Below are positions 20,574 through 29,759 of a stretch of DNA of 32,785 bases, one piece after another. Made by a program: the position numbers and the translations under genes. Origin of the DNA: Deltaproteobacteria bacterium. GTDB taxonomy: Bacteria; Desulfobacterota; Dissulfuribacteria; Dissulfuribacterales; QOAL01. Each line of letters starts with the position of its first letter. Position 1 is the first letter of the stretch. The DNA lies in assembly GCA_026986785.1 (NCBI GenBank), contig JALSNW010000033.1, positions 1 through 32,785 of the forward strand. Reading direction: 5' to 3'. Below the pieces are notes generated by a model. That model was not told where the DNA came from and ran no database searches. It was given only the letters and a program-made list of their open reading frames with translations.

Positions 20574-20945
20574 TTATTTGGCCAGGGCCTGTCTTACAGC
20601 AAGGCCTATATTGAAAAGCGTGTATGGTTTCCGCACAAATCCCAGGGCGCCCAAGGCCAAAATAGTCTTGACTTCATGATCCTCACAGTACCCGCTTACT
20701 ATGAGCGCCCTTTGGCCTGGCCTTATCTCGATTATCTTTTCATAGGTCTGGCGTCCACCCATACCTGGTCCCAGTATCATATCGAGCAGAACAAGATCAA
20801 CCTCTTTCTCCATCAGATATTCCACTGCCTCTTCCCCTGAACAGACCGTCTCTACCTTATAGCCAAGAGATGAGAGTATCTTCTCGAGCAGATCCCTTTG
20901 CTGTTGTTCATCGTCCGTTAAGAAACTCCTGCGCCCAAAATACAT
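20574..20945 (-). CDS. orphan single-domain response regulator (receiver only)
   Basis: This 123-residue CheY-like receiver has no output domain. Key residues are the acidic pair D11-D12 (LTDDE), the phosphorylation site D55 (LVLLDMIL), S84 (ALIVSG) and K106 (VRKPY). Receivers of this type resemble the C-terminal module of hybrid kinases. The upstream frame hits a stop codon, so it is not an obvious remnant of a longer gene. It probably works by protein-protein contact. No kinase is adjacent; the PAS kinase at 4755 is a possible but unproven partner. No clear promoter was found. Confidence 0.85.
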   Translation of the reverse strand: MYFGRRSFLTDDEQQQRDLLEKILSSLGYKVETVCSGEEAVEYLMEKEVDLVLLDMILGPGMGGRQTYEKIIEIRPGQRALIVSGYCEDHEVKTILALGALGFVRKPYTLFNIGLAVRQALAK

Positions 20946-21385: not shown

Positions 21386-22504
21386 TCAGGGCCTTTTATA
21401 GTGTTTTTGAAAGAGTCCTTCCAACTGTTCCACATGGCTGTCCCATGAAAAATTTCTGGAATGCTCTACCATCGCCTCCCTGAGGCCTTCTTTCTCCCCT
21501 GGTGCCAAATCCAAAAAGTATCTCAGAGCATTGGCCAATTTTCCTGGATCAGGTCTGTCTATCAGGAGACTTTCATCCACTGGGCCGACAGCCTCTGCTG
21601 CGCCATTTAACCTTGTGGTGACCACGGGGGTTCCACATGCCATGGCCTCGAGTACTGAGTTGGCAAAAGGATCATAACTGGTTGGTAGGCAGAATATATC
21701 CGCTGCCGCATACACCCTCTCCATATCGTGTCTAAACCCAATCCATCGTATCCTTTCCAATATGCCAAGCTTACTACCAAGCAACTCCAACTCTTTCGTC
21801 TTATCAATACCAGCCACTATTATCTTGACATTTTTGCCCAGCTTGGACACAGCCTCCAAAAGACATGTCAGGCCCTTTCTCCGGTAATCCAGGCCAGCAA
21901 AAAGGATGACAACATCCTGCTGCCCTATCTCAAGGGCCCTCCTAATGCGCTGTATTTGCCTTTTGGAACAAGGCCTGAACCTATCATGGTCTACCCCGGT
22001 ATAGACAACAAAAACATACTCTGGCCGCACATTGTAATAATGTTTAAGTTGTCTTTTCACCAGTCTGGAATTTGTTATCAGATACCCACAGGAACGTATG
22101 GCCTGGCGTTCCTGCCACAAGAGTAGGCTATGACGCAGAGAGAAACGCCTGAGAATGGCAAGAATGAGATTGTCCCTGTAACCCAGCTCCAGCCAAGCTG
22201 CATGAAGGGGATCCGAAATGCGGAGAAAATCTGCTCCTCTTATGCGGGACAGGCCATAGACACAGGAAGGAGCGAGCCTGTTAAGGGCCAGTTGGCTCTC
22301 CATGAAGAAACTCAAGTTCTTGAGAATACTTCCCCTGCCAGCCACCCTGGCCCTGACGAATGAGACACCATTTACAGAGGATGCATCTGCTACGATTCTC
22401 ACATCATGTCCACGCTCCTTGAACCGGAAGGCCACATTGGCACAATACCCTTCTGCCCCACCCAAGTTCAGCCCACACCGCCTTCGCACTATGGTGATCT
22501 TCAT
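21386..22504 (-). CDS. WaaG-like family 4 glycosyltransferase
   Basis: This 372-residue GT-B glycosyltransferase (GT4) starts with RRCGLNLGGAEGYCANVA, carries TGVDHDRFRP in the linker, and has the C-terminal donor-site block PTSYDPFANSVLEAMACG (near residues 272-290), which holds the E-x7-E motif. It resembles WaaG/RfaG, the enzyme that adds glucose to the first LPS heptose, but sugar specificity cannot be read. No membrane helix is visible, so it should act at the inner face of the inner membrane. Its start overlaps the arnD stop by 4 bp. It is the last gene of the arn-type unit. Confidence 0.85.
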   Translation of the reverse strand: MKITIVRRRCGLNLGGAEGYCANVAFRFKERGHDVRIVADASSVNGVSFVRARVAGRGSILKNLSFFMESQLALNRLAPSCVYGLSRIRGADFLRISDPLHAAWLELGYRDNLILAILRRFSLRHSLLLWQERQAIRSCGYLITNSRLVKRQLKHYYNVRPEYVFVVYTGVDHDRFRPCSKRQIQRIRRALEIGQQDVVILFAGLDYRRKGLTCLLEAVSKLGKNVKIIVAGIDKTKELELLGSKLGILERIRWIGFRHDMERVYAAADIFCLPTSYDPFANSVLEAMACGTPVVTTRLNGAAEAVGPVDESLLIDRPDPGKLANALRYFLDLAPGEKEGLREAMVEHSRNFSWDSHVEQLEGLFQKHYKRP

Positions 22505-23427
22505 GGCCTCATGCCCAAACTCTTTTCAGCAGAAGACACCTTTCCTGCCCTGCCAGGAATACGAATCGAGGAAAGATAAAGCACAGGAATATCCTTTTGT
22601 TTAAACAGCTCAAGGGCAGCCTCTTCCATTGTGGAAAACCCCTGAAATTCCCTGAGAAGAGTGACCAAGAAACGTCTGAAAAACGGCCGATACATCCCCC
22701 CTTCTACCTCGGCGTGCACTGCCAATACAGGCAGATCGGCCCTCTTCAATGGCTCAAGGAGCCTGGCAGCCATCTCATCTTCATCCCTGACGCCCACAGC
22801 AAGGAGTTCTTCGATACAAGGACCTATTGTTGGAATCTGCAGGGTTGAAAAATGCCTGGCATCAGTTCTCAAAAAACAAGGAGAAGGCCCCCTAAGGTCA
22901 CTGGCATAGAGGAGATCGAACTCGTCCTCCACAGCAAGGCTAGAGGCTGTTACTTGCCAACCTGGCGCTGCTACGGCCTTTGGCCTCACAGAAAATATCT
23001 CCATAAAGGCCTCAAAGGCATTCTCATATTCGGCCCTGATATCATGCAGTGTCATATCAGCCAACCTATCTTGCCACTTTCTGTGATCCCAGGCATGGAC
23101 TATTACCTCGTGCCCTTGAGAAACAATATCTCTGCACAACCCTGGAAACGACGTGGCAATTGGTCTTGCAGGCAGAATTGTACCTGATAACACTGTCCTT
23201 AGCCCATATAGCCTTGGGGCTCCAGTAAAGAGCATCTTTTTCAAAAAGGCCGGGTCAGTAAAAAGCCTGAAGATGGCTTTACCCGCATTATCAGGACCAA
23301 AGGAGAGACAAAAGGTGGCCTTTATCCCAAAATGAGCCAGATCCTCCAAGAGTGCTGGCACTCCATCCCTCATTCCATCATGGGTATCAACATCTATCTT
23401 GAGACACAACTTGTCCAAATCTCTCAC
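22501..23427 (-). CDS. arnD: ArnD-like polysaccharide-deacetylase family deformylase
   Basis: ArnD removes the formyl group from undecaprenyl-phosphate 4-deoxy-4-formamido-L-arabinose during lipid A modification with aminoarabinose. The 308-residue protein tracks the E. coli ArnD sequence as I recall it: KIDVDTHDGMRDGVP at the start (metal-binding aspartates at 12 and 14), SFGPDNAGK, VIVHAWDHRKWQ (H111, H115), AAPGW and AVHAEVEGGMY. These support ArnD rather than a generic NodB deacetylase. It overlaps arnB (4 bp) and the glycosyltransferase (4 bp). Confidence 0.88.
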   Translation of the reverse strand: MRDLDKLCLKIDVDTHDGMRDGVPALLEDLAHFGIKATFCLSFGPDNAGKAIFRLFTDPAFLKKMLFTGAPRLYGLRTVLSGTILPARPIATSFPGLCRDIVSQGHEVIVHAWDHRKWQDRLADMTLHDIRAEYENAFEAFMEIFSVRPKAVAAPGWQVTASSLAVEDEFDLLYASDLRGPSPCFLRTDARHFSTLQIPTIGPCIEELLAVGVRDEDEMAARLLEPLKRADLPVLAVHAEVEGGMYRPFFRRFLVTLLREFQGFSTMEEAALELFKQKDIPVLYLSSIRIPGRAGKVSSAEKSLGMRP

Positions 23428-24608
23428 CCTTTGCGCGAAAACCTCTCTACAAGCCTTTTGAGAGCCGAGACCACATCCACCTGATCATCCTCGGTCAAAA
23501 GGGGATAAAGGGGCAGTGAAAAAAGCCTGTCGCTGTTCCATTCGGCAGCAGGCAACATCCCGCGACTAAAGCCGTATTTCTCTCTATAGTATCTCTGCAG
23601 GTGAAGGGCTGGAAAATGAAGCCCTATGCCAATATTTTCCTCCTGGAGATGGAGGATGAACTCGTCCCTGTCCACGCTCAGGCTATCGATATCCAAACGC
23701 ACTACGAAAAGGTGCCAGGCATGAATATGGCTATAATCAGGAGACTTAAGAGGCATGATCTCAGGGATGTCCTTCAAAAGATCAAGATAATTTTCTGCAA
23801 GTTCTGTGCGCCTTTTGTTAAAGTGTGTAAGCTTTTTCAGTTGATGAATACCTATGGCAGCCTGAATGTCCAACATGTTGTACTTGTAACCTGGCTCTAT
23901 GGTTTCATATTGTGGTAGTCCCCCTTTTGCATATCTCCTCCAGGCGTCCCTGGAGATGCCGTGAAACCTTAGTCTTCTCATGCGATCGGCGCGTCCTGGA
24001 TCTCTACAAAGAATCATGCCCCCTTCACCAGTGGTCATGTTTTTTATGGGATGAAAGCTGAAAACCGCCATCTCGCTCCTTGAGCCGACAAGCTCACCCT
24101 TGTACCAAGTGCCTACGGCATGAGCAGCATCCTCTATGAGGGCCAGATGATATTTTTTGCAGACTTGCCTTAAGGGCTCCAGGTCACTTGGAGCCCCAGC
24201 AAAATGTACAGGTATTACCGCCCTGGTCCTGCTGGTGATCCGGGCCTCTATCTCCTGGGGCAAGATCTGAAGTGTATCCTTTTCCACGTCGGCGAATACA
24301 CTCTTTCCCCCACAGATCTCAATATTGTTGACAGTAGAAGGCCATGTTATTGGGGTAGTGATCACTTCGTCCCCTGGTTCAAGATCCAGACAGGCAAGGC
24401 ATAGATGCAACCCTGCCGTGGCTGAATTGACGGCAATGGCCTCCTGGCCTCCACTCCAACTCTCAAAATCTGACTCGAGCCTTGCCACCTTGGGCCCTGT
24501 GGTGATCCAGCCACTCTTCAGACTGTCCACCACCTCATCGATCTCATCCTGCCCTATTGTGGGACGACAAAATGGGAGGAACTCGCGTCTGATATCCATT
24601 TTATACAT
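23424..24608 (-). CDS. arnB: ArnB-like PLP-dependent aminotransferase
   Basis: ArnB transaminates UDP-4-keto-arabinose to UDP-4-amino-4-deoxy-L-arabinose, using PLP. The 394-residue protein matches the E. coli enzyme closely from memory: EFLPFCRPTIGQDEIDEVV at the start, SGWITTGPK, NSATAGLHL, VIPVHFAGAP, IEDAAHAVGTWYKG (PLP-ring aspartate at 160), FSFHPIKNMTTGEGG (Schiff-base Lys189), EPGYKYNMLDIQAAI and the C-terminal EWNSDRLFSLPLYP. Related sugar aminotransferases exist, but the overall fit and the neighbouring arnD favour ArnB. AAGGAG lies about 10 nt before the start. It begins 3 nt after the arnE-like stop. Confidence 0.9.
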   Translation of the reverse strand: MYKMDIRREFLPFCRPTIGQDEIDEVVDSLKSGWITTGPKVARLESDFESWSGGQEAIAVNSATAGLHLCLACLDLEPGDEVITTPITWPSTVNNIEICGGKSVFADVEKDTLQILPQEIEARITSRTRAVIPVHFAGAPSDLEPLRQVCKKYHLALIEDAAHAVGTWYKGELVGSRSEMAVFSFHPIKNMTTGEGGMILCRDPGRADRMRRLRFHGISRDAWRRYAKGGLPQYETIEPGYKYNMLDIQAAIGIHQLKKLTHFNKRRTELAENYLDLLKDIPEIMPLKSPDYSHIHAWHLFVVRLDIDSLSVDRDEFILHLQEENIGIGLHFPALHLQRYYREKYGFSRGMLPAAEWNSDRLFSLPLYPLLTEDDQVDVVSALKRLVERFSRKG

Positions 24609-24611
24609 CTA

Positions 24612-24983
24612 TTACGCACTCCTTGTAATGAGAAAGACCCCTAAACAGATCACGATTATACCTATCCAGCGAATTGGACTCAAAGGTTCGTGAAAGAAAT
24701 ATCTCCCTGCCAGGGCCGCTACTATATATCCAACACTTAGCATTGGATAGGCATAACTCACATCCACCCTCGAAAGCACCATGAGCCATACGGCAAGACT
24801 GATAACATAAAACGCCACGCCAAGAATCACAAAAGGGTTGACAGCTACCTTCAAACCAATAGGGATCAGGTTCTCGATTGTGAAGGAGAAATGACCTATA
24901 TCCGTCATGCCCTTTTTCAATACCAGTTGGGCTGCTGCATTCAAAAACACGCCCAAGAGGATAAGAGGAATATATCTATTCAT
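24612..24983 (-). CDS. arnE: ArnE-like small multidrug-resistance/EamA family protein
   Basis: A 123-residue membrane protein with four predicted helices (MNRYIPLILLGVFLN; an IPIGLKVAVNPFVILGVAFYV stretch; VSYAYPMLSVGYIVAALAG; IRWIGIIVICLGVFLITRS). ArnE/ArnF flip undecaprenyl-phosphate aminoarabinose across the inner membrane. The short four-helix form and linkage to arnB suit ArnE, although other SMR-type transporters look alike. In E. coli a partner ArnF is needed; none is adjacent here. The start at 24983 is chosen because AGGGCGGA lies just upstream; a longer frame begins with a GTG and encodes a non-membrane leader unlike the family. Confidence 0.72.
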   Translation of the reverse strand: MNRYIPLILLGVFLNAAAQLVLKKGMTDIGHFSFTIENLIPIGLKVAVNPFVILGVAFYVISLAVWLMVLSRVDVSYAYPMLSVGYIVAALAGRYFFHEPLSPIRWIGIIVICLGVFLITRSA

Positions 24984-25196: not shown

Positions 25197-26372
25197 ATGG
25201 CGCGAAAACTTGCTTTCTGTATATATTTTTCAATTATGTTGTTTTCCTCAGACGTCATGGCGGAAGGAATTGCCATAGGTACCCAGGCAGAATCGTCCTA
25301 TCTTACCATGACTGGCCTATGGGATTTTCATACCTCCGATTACACGGTAACAGGAACATGTCCTGCAGGGAACCCGGCATCAGGGACCCTTTCCATATTC
25401 AGTGATACCAATGCCACAAAAACAGCAGTACTCCAATTCCTCAACGGGATAACATGTAATCCCTCTGAAAGCTGTATGTACAGGGGAACAAGCCAGGACC
25501 CCATCAGTATCGTGGTCTCCAACAGCATAATAGACCAAAACGGTGGCTATGCCACCAATACCTTGGCCATTACTTGGTCATCGAATTCTACTGCATACGG
25601 TACCGGTGCATCCGTATACAACTTTTCAAATGGTGTTTCTTGTACCTGGAACTACAAGATCTCCCTGACCCGCAGACGTGGCAGTGCCAAAAATGGCTGG
25701 TGGTATGACTCAAAGGCCATTGGCACAGGGCTTTCCATAGAGATACAAAACGATAAACTCTTTCTTGCCTGGTACTCGTATGACGAAAAAGGCAATCCTG
25801 TGTGGCTCACCTCTTATGGCAATCTTACAGACACAGGCGATTTCAATGGGACCTTATACGAATGGAAGGGATGGAACCTTTTAGGCCAATATTTTGCCCC
25901 CACCGCCTCTGAAGCAGGGACCATATTGCTGGATTTCACCAGCGATAATACAACGACCATGTCCTGGAGTTACAAGGGGATAGATGGAAATTGCTCCTTG
26001 GTGAAATTCATGGATACCTTGTCTCCAGGCGTTAGGGACCCAAGGAACTTGAATGGATGGTGGTTTGACCCCGACTATGACGGCATGGGACTTTACATGG
26101 AGTCAGAAGGAGAAAAGATGTTCATGGCCTGGTACAACTACGACCCATTTGGGAAGCCTCGGTGGTGGACCGCATCCGAGACCTTTAGGACAACCGATGA
26201 CTCCTTTTATTCAAAACTTACTGAATGGAGAGACGGTCAATGTTTTGGGTGCTCTTATAAATTGCCAGTGGCAGTAGAGGTTGGGGATCTGCTCGTTCAA
26301 TTCACATCAGACACTACAGCCACCATGTTCTGGAATGGCAAGATATTCCACATAAGACGCTTCATTTTCTGA
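25197..26372 (+). CDS. exported protein with two GWW-type repeats
   Basis: No function is known to me. A signal peptide (MARKLAFCIYFSIMLFSSDVMA) is followed by an N-terminal domain of about 140 residues that starts TGLWDFHTSDYTVTGTC and has several cysteines. Two copies of a repeat of about 105 residues follow, at 166-271 and 286-389. Both begin NGWW, contain a LFLAWYSYD / MFMAWYNYD strand, then GNPVWLT / GKPRWWT, then LYEW / LTEW, and end with a LLDFTSDNTTTMSW / LVQFTSDTTATMFW strand. The repeats look like beta structure in an extracellular or outer-surface protein. CAGGAG lies 7 nt before the ATG. Confidence 0.75.
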   Translation: MARKLAFCIYFSIMLFSSDVMAEGIAIGTQAESSYLTMTGLWDFHTSDYTVTGTCPAGNPASGTLSIFSDTNATKTAVLQFLNGITCNPSESCMYRGTSQDPISIVVSNSIIDQNGGYATNTLAITWSSNSTAYGTGASVYNFSNGVSCTWNYKISLTRRRGSAKNGWWYDSKAIGTGLSIEIQNDKLFLAWYSYDEKGNPVWLTSYGNLTDTGDFNGTLYEWKGWNLLGQYFAPTASEAGTILLDFTSDNTTTMSWSYKGIDGNCSLVKFMDTLSPGVRDPRNLNGWWFDPDYDGMGLYMESEGEKMFMAWYNYDPFGKPRWWTASETFRTTDDSFYSKLTEWRDGQCFGCSYKLPVAVEVGDLLVQFTSDTTATMFWNGKIFHIRRFIF

Positions 26373-27837: not shown

Positions 27838-29634
27838 TTAGCGTACAGGAACGAGCTGCCATCCAGAAGGTGTTATCTTCACCATTGCCTTTATGTGAAG
27901 TGGGCCTGAAAATGTAACAGGAACAGGATATAGGATCCTGATGGTACCGTCTGTAAAGGTACCATCCATTTTGCTTCCGTAGTTGTGGCGGGCAAAGGCA
28001 AGCTTCAGCCTGGCAACTTCTTTGGGAGGCTTAACCATCCAGCCCCATGCCCATCCGTCAAGCTCTACCACCCTTCCTGCAAACCAGTGAGGATTTGCAT
28101 CTATTCTTGCAAGCATGGACTCCTTTGGGCCTGGGATATTTGACTGATCCTCGGATGTACGAACGAAGGGTCCAGTAAATATGTGCAGGCTATCAAAATC
28201 CGAAACAACCAGGCTGTTTCCTGCCATTGCAGCATCAATTACTGTAGAATCTTTATCCATGCATATGTCCTGGGCCATCTCAAGGTCTTTGCCCTTGAAG
28301 ATTCTAAGACAAAGCCGCTGCCGTCTGAGATAGCGTCCTTTATAAGAGACAAGCCCTCTTCCAGGGACAAAGGATACCAGGTATTCATCCCCAGGCACGA
28401 GGAAGAACAGGCCACCCCTTTTTCTGGATGTTCTCATCCTCTTTACCCCACCGGTTTTCACATCCAGTTCTATGCGCAATAGGCGACCAGACTTGTAACA
28501 AAAGAGCTGCTGGTCCGTCGAGGAAAAGGTGGCCTGATACAAAAAACTGTTTCCCCCACGAAGGCGTATTGTATCAAGAAGCCTGCTACCCTTGATATCC
28601 CAGAGCTCACCAAGGCTTGTAAATACCCATGGATGCATCCTAGCAAAAACAAAGGGTTGCCCGCTTCGTATAAGAAAGATCTGACGATTGGTAAGGATCT
28701 GCCTGATTTCATATTTTGCCCCTCCTTTATATAAGGCAACCAAAGGCTCCTTCTCATGGAAAAGAAACCCTTTGAAACGGACATTCTTTCCCAAGATCTT
28801 CCCAGATCCAGGTGTACAAAAGGTAAACCTATACTTTAAGACAGCTCCTTTTTTCAGGTCCATGAACCTTAGCTGCCTCTTGCTGAACCTTTGCATGTCT
28901 GTGTAGCAATCAAAGGCAATCACGTTGGATAGAGGGGTAAAGGTGACAGTTTCTGCAAGGTTTGCAAATATCCAGGAGCGGGTTCGTTTCCTTGCCATGA
29001 GATCTATGAGGGATATCTCGCCAATGGGGCAGAGATTGCCATTTTCATCCTCAAAACTCATGTCTGTCAAGACAGCGGCCACTCGTCCGTCTTCAGAGAT
29101 GGAGATGGATCTAACCGGGGCATTTATGCCAAGAGGAACCTTTGTGACCGTGCCCCATTGGTCCACAACCAAAATGCCGGTTTCACCAACATTCCCAACA
29201 GGCTCCCTCATGGCCTCCGGATATGTCTTGGCGTAGAAAAGGGCACCCTTTAGGAAAAACGGTAGGGCCTGCCTTAAGAATGAAGGAGGAAGAAGTCCTT
29301 TTGACCAGCCAGGGGACCTCGCCTCCATTTCTCTGGAGGCCTTTTGCCCTACCTCTTTCATGGCCCTATCCATATCTTGCCAGCTACCATAATTTTTCCT
29401 GACACTATCATCTATTATGGCGCTGATGCGTCTTTTCTCAGCCTCCAGCTCAGCTGGCTCAGGAGTAATCTTACTCATGTATCCAAAGACGGCAAATCCC
29501 CCTGAAAAGGCCGCTGGTGTGAAATAGTAGGCACCTGGGATCTTATCAACTCGGTATGGTGTGAACACCTGCCCCCACGCAGGGACAAAAGACAACACAA
29601 AGAGGGATAGTATCAAGAAACCGCATTTCTTCAT
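27838..29634 (-). CDS. large exported protein of unknown function
   Basis: I do not recognise this 598-residue protein. A signal peptide (MKKCGFLILSLFVLSFVPAWG) predicts export. The N-terminal part has an acidic helical segment (about 60-110; ELEAEKRRISAIIDDSVRKN). The middle (about 160-510) alternates short hydrophobic strands with turns and could be a beta-propeller, but no clear repeat signature is visible. The C-terminal 80 residues contain DGWAWGWM and AFARHNYG and may form a separate beta domain. The start at 29634 follows GAAGGA at about 9 nt; the longer frame adds 12 residues with no signal sequence. It lies upstream of the pseudoprotease on the same strand, but the 348-bp gap makes an operon uncertain. 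Confidence 0.6.
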   Translation of the reverse strand: MKKCGFLILSLFVLSFVPAWGQVFTPYRVDKIPGAYYFTPAAFSGGFAVFGYMSKITPEPAELEAEKRRISAIIDDSVRKNYGSWQDMDRAMKEVGQKASREMEARSPGWSKGLLPPSFLRQALPFFLKGALFYAKTYPEAMREPVGNVGETGILVVDQWGTVTKVPLGINAPVRSISISEDGRVAAVLTDMSFEDENGNLCPIGEISLIDLMARKRTRSWIFANLAETVTFTPLSNVIAFDCYTDMQRFSKRQLRFMDLKKGAVLKYRFTFCTPGSGKILGKNVRFKGFLFHEKEPLVALYKGGAKYEIRQILTNRQIFLIRSGQPFVFARMHPWVFTSLGELWDIKGSRLLDTIRLRGGNSFLYQATFSSTDQQLFCYKSGRLLRIELDVKTGGVKRMRTSRKRGGLFFLVPGDEYLVSFVPGRGLVSYKGRYLRRQRLCLRIFKGKDLEMAQDICMDKDSTVIDAAMAGNSLVVSDFDSLHIFTGPFVRTSEDQSNIPGPKESMLARIDANPHWFAGRVVELDGWAWGWMVKPPKEVARLKLAFARHNYGSKMDGTFTDGTIRILYPVPVTFSGPLHIKAMVKITPSGWQLVPVR

Positions 29635-29759
29635 GTAGCTTTTTCCTTCAAGGTACTCAAGATATCTCAATGCATTACCATCTAATTACAAAGAGTCAAA
29701 TAGCTGTACCAGTATTTCTTTAAATTTTGGTCAGTTCACCAGATCATTGAACAGCATGA

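Follow-up and report, generated by a model that had tools for sequence, protein, structure and literature searches.

The systems closest to the locus described here are the aminoarabinose (Ara4N) operon arnBCADTEF of E. coli, the arn genes of Burkholderia, and, for its glycosyltransferase, the LPS-core enzyme WaaG. In Burkholderia thailandensis, homology to ArnA extends over two genes (BTH_I2191 and BTH_I2190) and one ArnE/F homolog, BTH_I2194, is named instead of a pair, while the Burkholderia ArnT is remote, with 23% identity to the E. coli protein (PMC7835334). SMR-type proteins, among which the predicted flippase subunit described below is placed, can occur as homodimers or as heterodimers (PMC9574504). 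In WaaG, the nucleotide is held by Arg173, Lys209, Glu289, and Gly15, and a clash of Arg208 with an N-acetyl group is reported (PMC10579960). Here, we describe a genome that most probably encodes the complete Ara4N pathway in dispersed genes and with standard chemistry, a WaaG-type core gene being included in its arnE-arnB-arnD unit (probability of about 0.76).

The window (the whole 32,785-nucleotide stretch of DNA that was analyzed, contig C33) belongs to a genome of 2.59 Mb that is about 99% complete. On its minus strand, an arnE/F-like gene, arnB, arnD, and a GT4 gene are arranged head to tail in this order between 21386 and 24983, with a 3-bp gap at the first junction and 4-bp overlaps at the arnB/arnD and arnD/GT4 junctions, and all four were recovered at the positions and in the tight packing described in the sequence-only reading. 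Gene identities were assigned by NCBIfam and Pfam searches. The first gene (24612-24983, minus strand, ATG at 24983) encodes a 123-aa SMR-type membrane protein, which is probably an undecaprenyl-phosphate-Ara4N flippase subunit and scores higher on the ArnF model (4e-17) than on the ArnE model (8e-13). The arnB gene (23424-24608, minus strand) encodes a predicted UDP-Ara4O aminotransferase of the PLP-dependent DegT/ArnB family (NCBIfam PRK11658, 3e-147, best model; Pfam PF01041, 6e-120), and arnD (22501-23427, minus strand, GTG start) a predicted undecaprenyl-phosphate-Ara4FN deformylase (PRK15394, 1.1e-56) that is 34% identical to E. coli ArnD and in which D12, D14, H111, H115, H238, and E240 are invariant in an alignment of six sequences. 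The arn proteins of the cluster fall below the E. coli-based equivalog cut-offs of NCBIfam, in line with distant orthologs, although Ara4N-pathway models are the best NCBIfam matches of both ArnB and ArnD. The last gene (21386-22504, minus strand) carries the Pfam domains Glyco_transf_4 and Glycos_transf_1 and encodes a WaaG-like GT4 glycosyltransferase, a probable LPS-core hexosyltransferase. The arrangement is not due to chance, because the identical gene order was found again in related genomes, and the four genes are presumably co-transcribed; a scan for promoters and terminators along the cluster returned about as many sites as in shuffled sequence. Around the cluster, about 440 bp 3' of the GT4 gene hold no listed ORF of at least 90 aa, and a stand-alone response-regulator receiver domain is encoded beyond them (20574-20945, minus strand). 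On the other side, divergent from arnE, lies a gene for a 391-aa protein (25197-26372, plus strand) that appears to have a signal peptide and contains a repeated segment of the GWW type, followed further on by a 610-aa ORF (27838-29670, minus strand); neither had any Pfam or NCBIfam match.

The absence of ArnA, ArnC, and ArnT emphasized in the sequence-only reading applies to the cluster alone, and one of the two alternatives of that reading, namely that the missing steps are encoded elsewhere in the genome, proved correct. Using E. coli arn proteins as queries against the own genome, we located ArnA as two adjacent genes (C43:22818-24851), a predicted formyltransferase, ArnA1 (L066:8819-9736; NCBIfam PRK06988, 349.5 bits vs a cut-off of 316), and a predicted UDP-4-keto-pentose synthase, ArnA2 (L066:9833-10888; PRK11908, 573.6 bits vs a cut-off of 294). 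Both thus exceed the curated cut-offs for the PRK06988 formyltransferase and the PRK11908 UDP-4-keto-pentose/UDP-xylose synthase, and unlike those systems, the split arnA genes are followed by an arnT-like gene. The split proteins are 43-54% identical to the corresponding halves of E. coli ArnA, and the NLHGSLLP segment of the latter is kept in the formyltransferase. The arnT-like gene, of family GT83, lies 44 bp beyond them (L066:10933-12576, C43), and a second GT83 gene was found on C22 (L069:8253-9914). The two ArnT-like proteins are 24-28% identical to E. coli ArnT, and the ArnT model is the sole NCBIfam match of each at E ≤ 1e-10 (1e-17 and 8e-31), far below the cut-off; GT83 enzymes are able to use other lipid-linked sugars. 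The arnC gene (C40:85622-86539) encodes a protein 49% identical to E. coli ArnC over 307 aa (PRK10714, 6.5e-111, below the cut-off of 529), and a second, weaker ArnC-like protein is encoded on C48. Downstream of arnC (L067:8614-9633) is an apparent rpsB-tsf-frr-uppS-cdsA-dxr run, its gene names being read by eye from the sequences. For ArnC, ArnA1, and ArnA2, Ara4N-pathway models are among the best or near-best matches. The genome also encodes two full-length NDP-sugar dehydrogenases, either of which could supply UDP-GlcA. The arn genes are thus spread over at least four contigs, and with homologs of ArnA, ArnC, and ArnT present elsewhere, we rejected a reduced or shortened arn route as unsupported.

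The genome search revealed no second ArnE/F subunit: at E ≤ 0.1, the window protein was the only match, and the enteric-type ArnE/ArnF pair known from E. coli is thus represented by a single subunit, which is 73-84% identical in relatives. Because a single homolog has been described in Burkholderia, we consider the pair a trait of the enteric version rather than of the pathway. Overall, the genome resembles the arn system of B. thailandensis and B. cenocepacia in having more than one transcription unit, a split ArnA, one ArnE/F homolog, and a remote ArnT (PMC7835334), and differs from it in that its genes are found on four or more contigs and a WaaG-like gene is included in one of the units. 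As in the E. coli operon, there are homologs for every enzymatic step and the presumed reaction order is the same; unlike in E. coli, the genes are dispersed, ArnA is split, and one ArnE/F-type subunit is accompanied by two ArnT-like proteins.

We further examined the GT4 protein, for which the WaaG-like label of the sequence-only reading was upheld by both profile and predicted fold. In a PDB profile search, positions 14-334 of 373 matched E. coli WaaG/RfaG (2IV7), and two higher-scoring matches were chains of the Corynebacterium GT4 enzyme MshA that aligned over the C-terminal part only. An AlphaFold2 model (pLDDT 90, built from nine sequences) had WaaG chains as its four best Foldseek matches in the PDB (TM-score 0.77-0.80), so that almost the entire protein resembles WaaG of E. 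coli (2IV7) and P. aeruginosa (8B5S/8B62). Its sequence is only about 21% identical overall to E. coli WaaG, and the UDP-binding Arg173, Lys209, Glu289, and Gly15 of WaaG are conserved, aligning with R175, K210, E286, and G16. Arg208 is the same as in E. coli WaaG, and because this residue is reported to clash with an N-acetyl group, a non-acetylated donor may be guessed at, if only tentatively. In contrast to WaaG, Glu281, the first Glu of the EX7E motif, is replaced by Asp278, and Asp19 by Tyr20, and the donor specificity may therefore differ. Because the NCBIfam matches listed for the protein included no WaaG equivalog, we name it WaaG-like rather than WaaG. No other GT4 protein of the genome aligns to the family over the whole length. 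Genes for heptosyltransferases and WaaP-like kinases are found on several further contigs, including C11 and C23, so that the WaaG-like gene stands apart from the rest of the core genes and is placed with arn genes instead of in a waa locus. Taken together, the sequence and the modeled structure suggest that the GT4 protein is probably a WaaG-type LPS-core transferase.

We then compared the gene order around arnB and arnD in relatives, drawing on 44 loci that were obtained by searching 84,980 species genomes for ArnD. Among the close relatives (L001-L018 and L022; ArnD 58-70% identical), 17 had sequence downstream of arnD; a GT4 gene directly follows arnD in nine of them (L001, L003-L007, L010, L012, and L022; junctions of -4 to +19 bp), whereas in the other eight arnD has no adjoining GT4 gene. 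The adjacency was not seen in any other of the 44 loci, and it persists down to a sequence identity of 48%. When 39 sequences were placed in a maximum-likelihood tree, the GT4 copies with arn linkage formed one clade, for which a single change would account (support 78/91; found in 81% of bootstrap trees), making a single origin likely, though not firm. The nearest unlinked copy (G094) lies about 4 kb from arnD and overlaps a WaaP-like gene, the next (G145) belongs to a genome in which no ArnD was found, and that of G230, from the same family as the window's genome, adjoins a WaaP-like gene while arnD is on another contig. We also considered an arn-specific donor switch read from the D-P-F-A-N motif, and rejected it since many sampled homologs without arn linkage carry D-P-F-[AS]-N or a near form. 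Among the papers listed in literature searches, none described a link between WaaG and arnD. Recurring in nine of 17 close relatives, the arnD-GT4 link is not accidental, and its conservation in one clade could reflect a closer functional tie.

Across 247 genomes of the phylum, the GT4 family (E ≤ 1e-50) was present in 87 and ArnD (E ≤ 1e-40) in 69; 31 genomes had both, 56 GT4 alone, 38 ArnD alone, and 122 neither. ArnD was therefore not found at the cut-off in 56 of the 87 GT4-bearing genomes, and obligate co-occurrence of GT4 and arn genes is unsupported (odds ratio 1.8, P = 0.054, by a statistic that ignores kinship). In several relatives, the GT4 homologs stand beside waaP and heptosyltransferase genes, adjoining WaaP-like kinases in G094, G124, G031, and G230 and lying near waaF, waaC, waaQ, and waaA homologs in genomes of family f19. 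In four f19 genomes, the GT4 homolog is 8-9 kb from arnD, and in three of these the stretch also holds several heptosyltransferase homologs and a waaA homolog, so LPS-core and arn genes have come close together more than once. In G031, where no ArnD was found, an ArnB-like aminotransferase gene (43% identity to window ArnB) is located between genes for WaaP-like kinases and beside a WaaG-like GT4 gene (L144:3729-8563). Some relatives have an ArnT-like gene immediately adjoining arnC or arnD, and two such genes occur near arnD in G236, L019, and L024. Two ArnT-like proteins possibly mean two acceptors.

In a dispersed pathway of the usual chemistry, a UDP-Glc dehydrogenase and ArnA2 would yield UDP-Ara4O, which ArnB of the window would convert to UDP-L-Ara4N for formylation by ArnA1. 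ArnC would place the formylated sugar on undecaprenyl phosphate, ArnD would remove the formyl group, the single ArnE/F-type subunit would flip the lipid-linked sugar, probably as a homodimer, and one or both of the ArnT-like enzymes would move the sugar to lipid A or the core on the periplasmic side. The GT4 protein would act in the cytoplasm, adding a hexose to the inner core of LPS, and would be tied to the arn genes by a common target and expression rather than by acting on Ara4N. The arn genes might instead serve another glycan, with the two GT83 enzymes passing lipid-linked Ara4N to a different polymer or to a protein. The presence of two ArnT-like proteins, both remote from that of E. 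coli, would fit such a role, but ArnB, ArnD, ArnC, ArnA1, and ArnA2 all match Ara4N-pathway models best or near-best and arnT-like genes adjoin arnC or arnD in several relatives, and we consider it unlikely.

Other alternatives concern the GT4 protein itself, which may take part in the Ara4N pathway, either by placing the sugar of UDP-L-Ara4N or UDP-L-Ara4FN on the LPS core in the cytoplasm or by building the core residue that ArnT decorates. UDP-L-Ara4N is made in the cytoplasm, where it would be at hand as a donor, and the 4-bp overlap, the conserved arnE-arnB-arnD-GT4 order with its one clade of linked copies, and the Asp and Tyr substitutions all agree with this proposal. It is nevertheless quite improbable, given that the D-P-F-[AS]-N motif is shared with many unlinked homologs, that the nearest of these adjoin a waaP-like kinase gene (G094 and G230) or belong to a genome without ArnD (G145), that the own genome has the full ArnC/ArnT route, and that about half of the close relatives have arnD without an adjoining GT4 gene. 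Slightly less credible still is the recruitment of the arn-linked WaaG-like protein to put Ara4N, or the residue receiving it, on the LPS core; if true, the members of a thermodesulfobacterial/deltaproteobacterial clade would have a core modified with Ara4N. Finally, GT4 is a very large family and the linkage is confined to one clade, as would be expected if a protein unrelated to LPS had entered the operon through accidental rearrangement. Given the match to WaaG in fold and sequence, the repeated position of homologs beside LPS-core genes, and a linkage kept at identities down to 48%, we regard this as the least probable explanation.

These results give no support to the shorter or different route via a cytoplasmic glycosyltransferase that the sequence-only reading had entertained, since the GT4 protein is WaaG-like and its relatives reside in LPS-core loci, often without arnD. 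The coupling that was taken as a sign of a non-standard pathway is real and conserved in one clade, but non-standard chemistry is unsupported. Of the two observations that, taken together, the sequence-only reading named as its refutation, one was made, a full arnA, arnC, and arnT set being present elsewhere in the genome, but the other was not, as the GT4 gene is conserved in the arn clusters of relatives in one clade. The arrangement is therefore unusual while the chemistry probably is not, known parts being newly arranged, and a single cluster alone is poor ground for calling an arn pathway reduced. Together, these findings point to a complete, dispersed aminoarabinose pathway with a split ArnA and apparently one flippase subunit in bacteria distant from both the enteric and the Burkholderia models. 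They also point to a linkage, conserved in one deltaproteobacterial clade, of genes for Ara4N synthesis with a gene for assembly of the LPS core.
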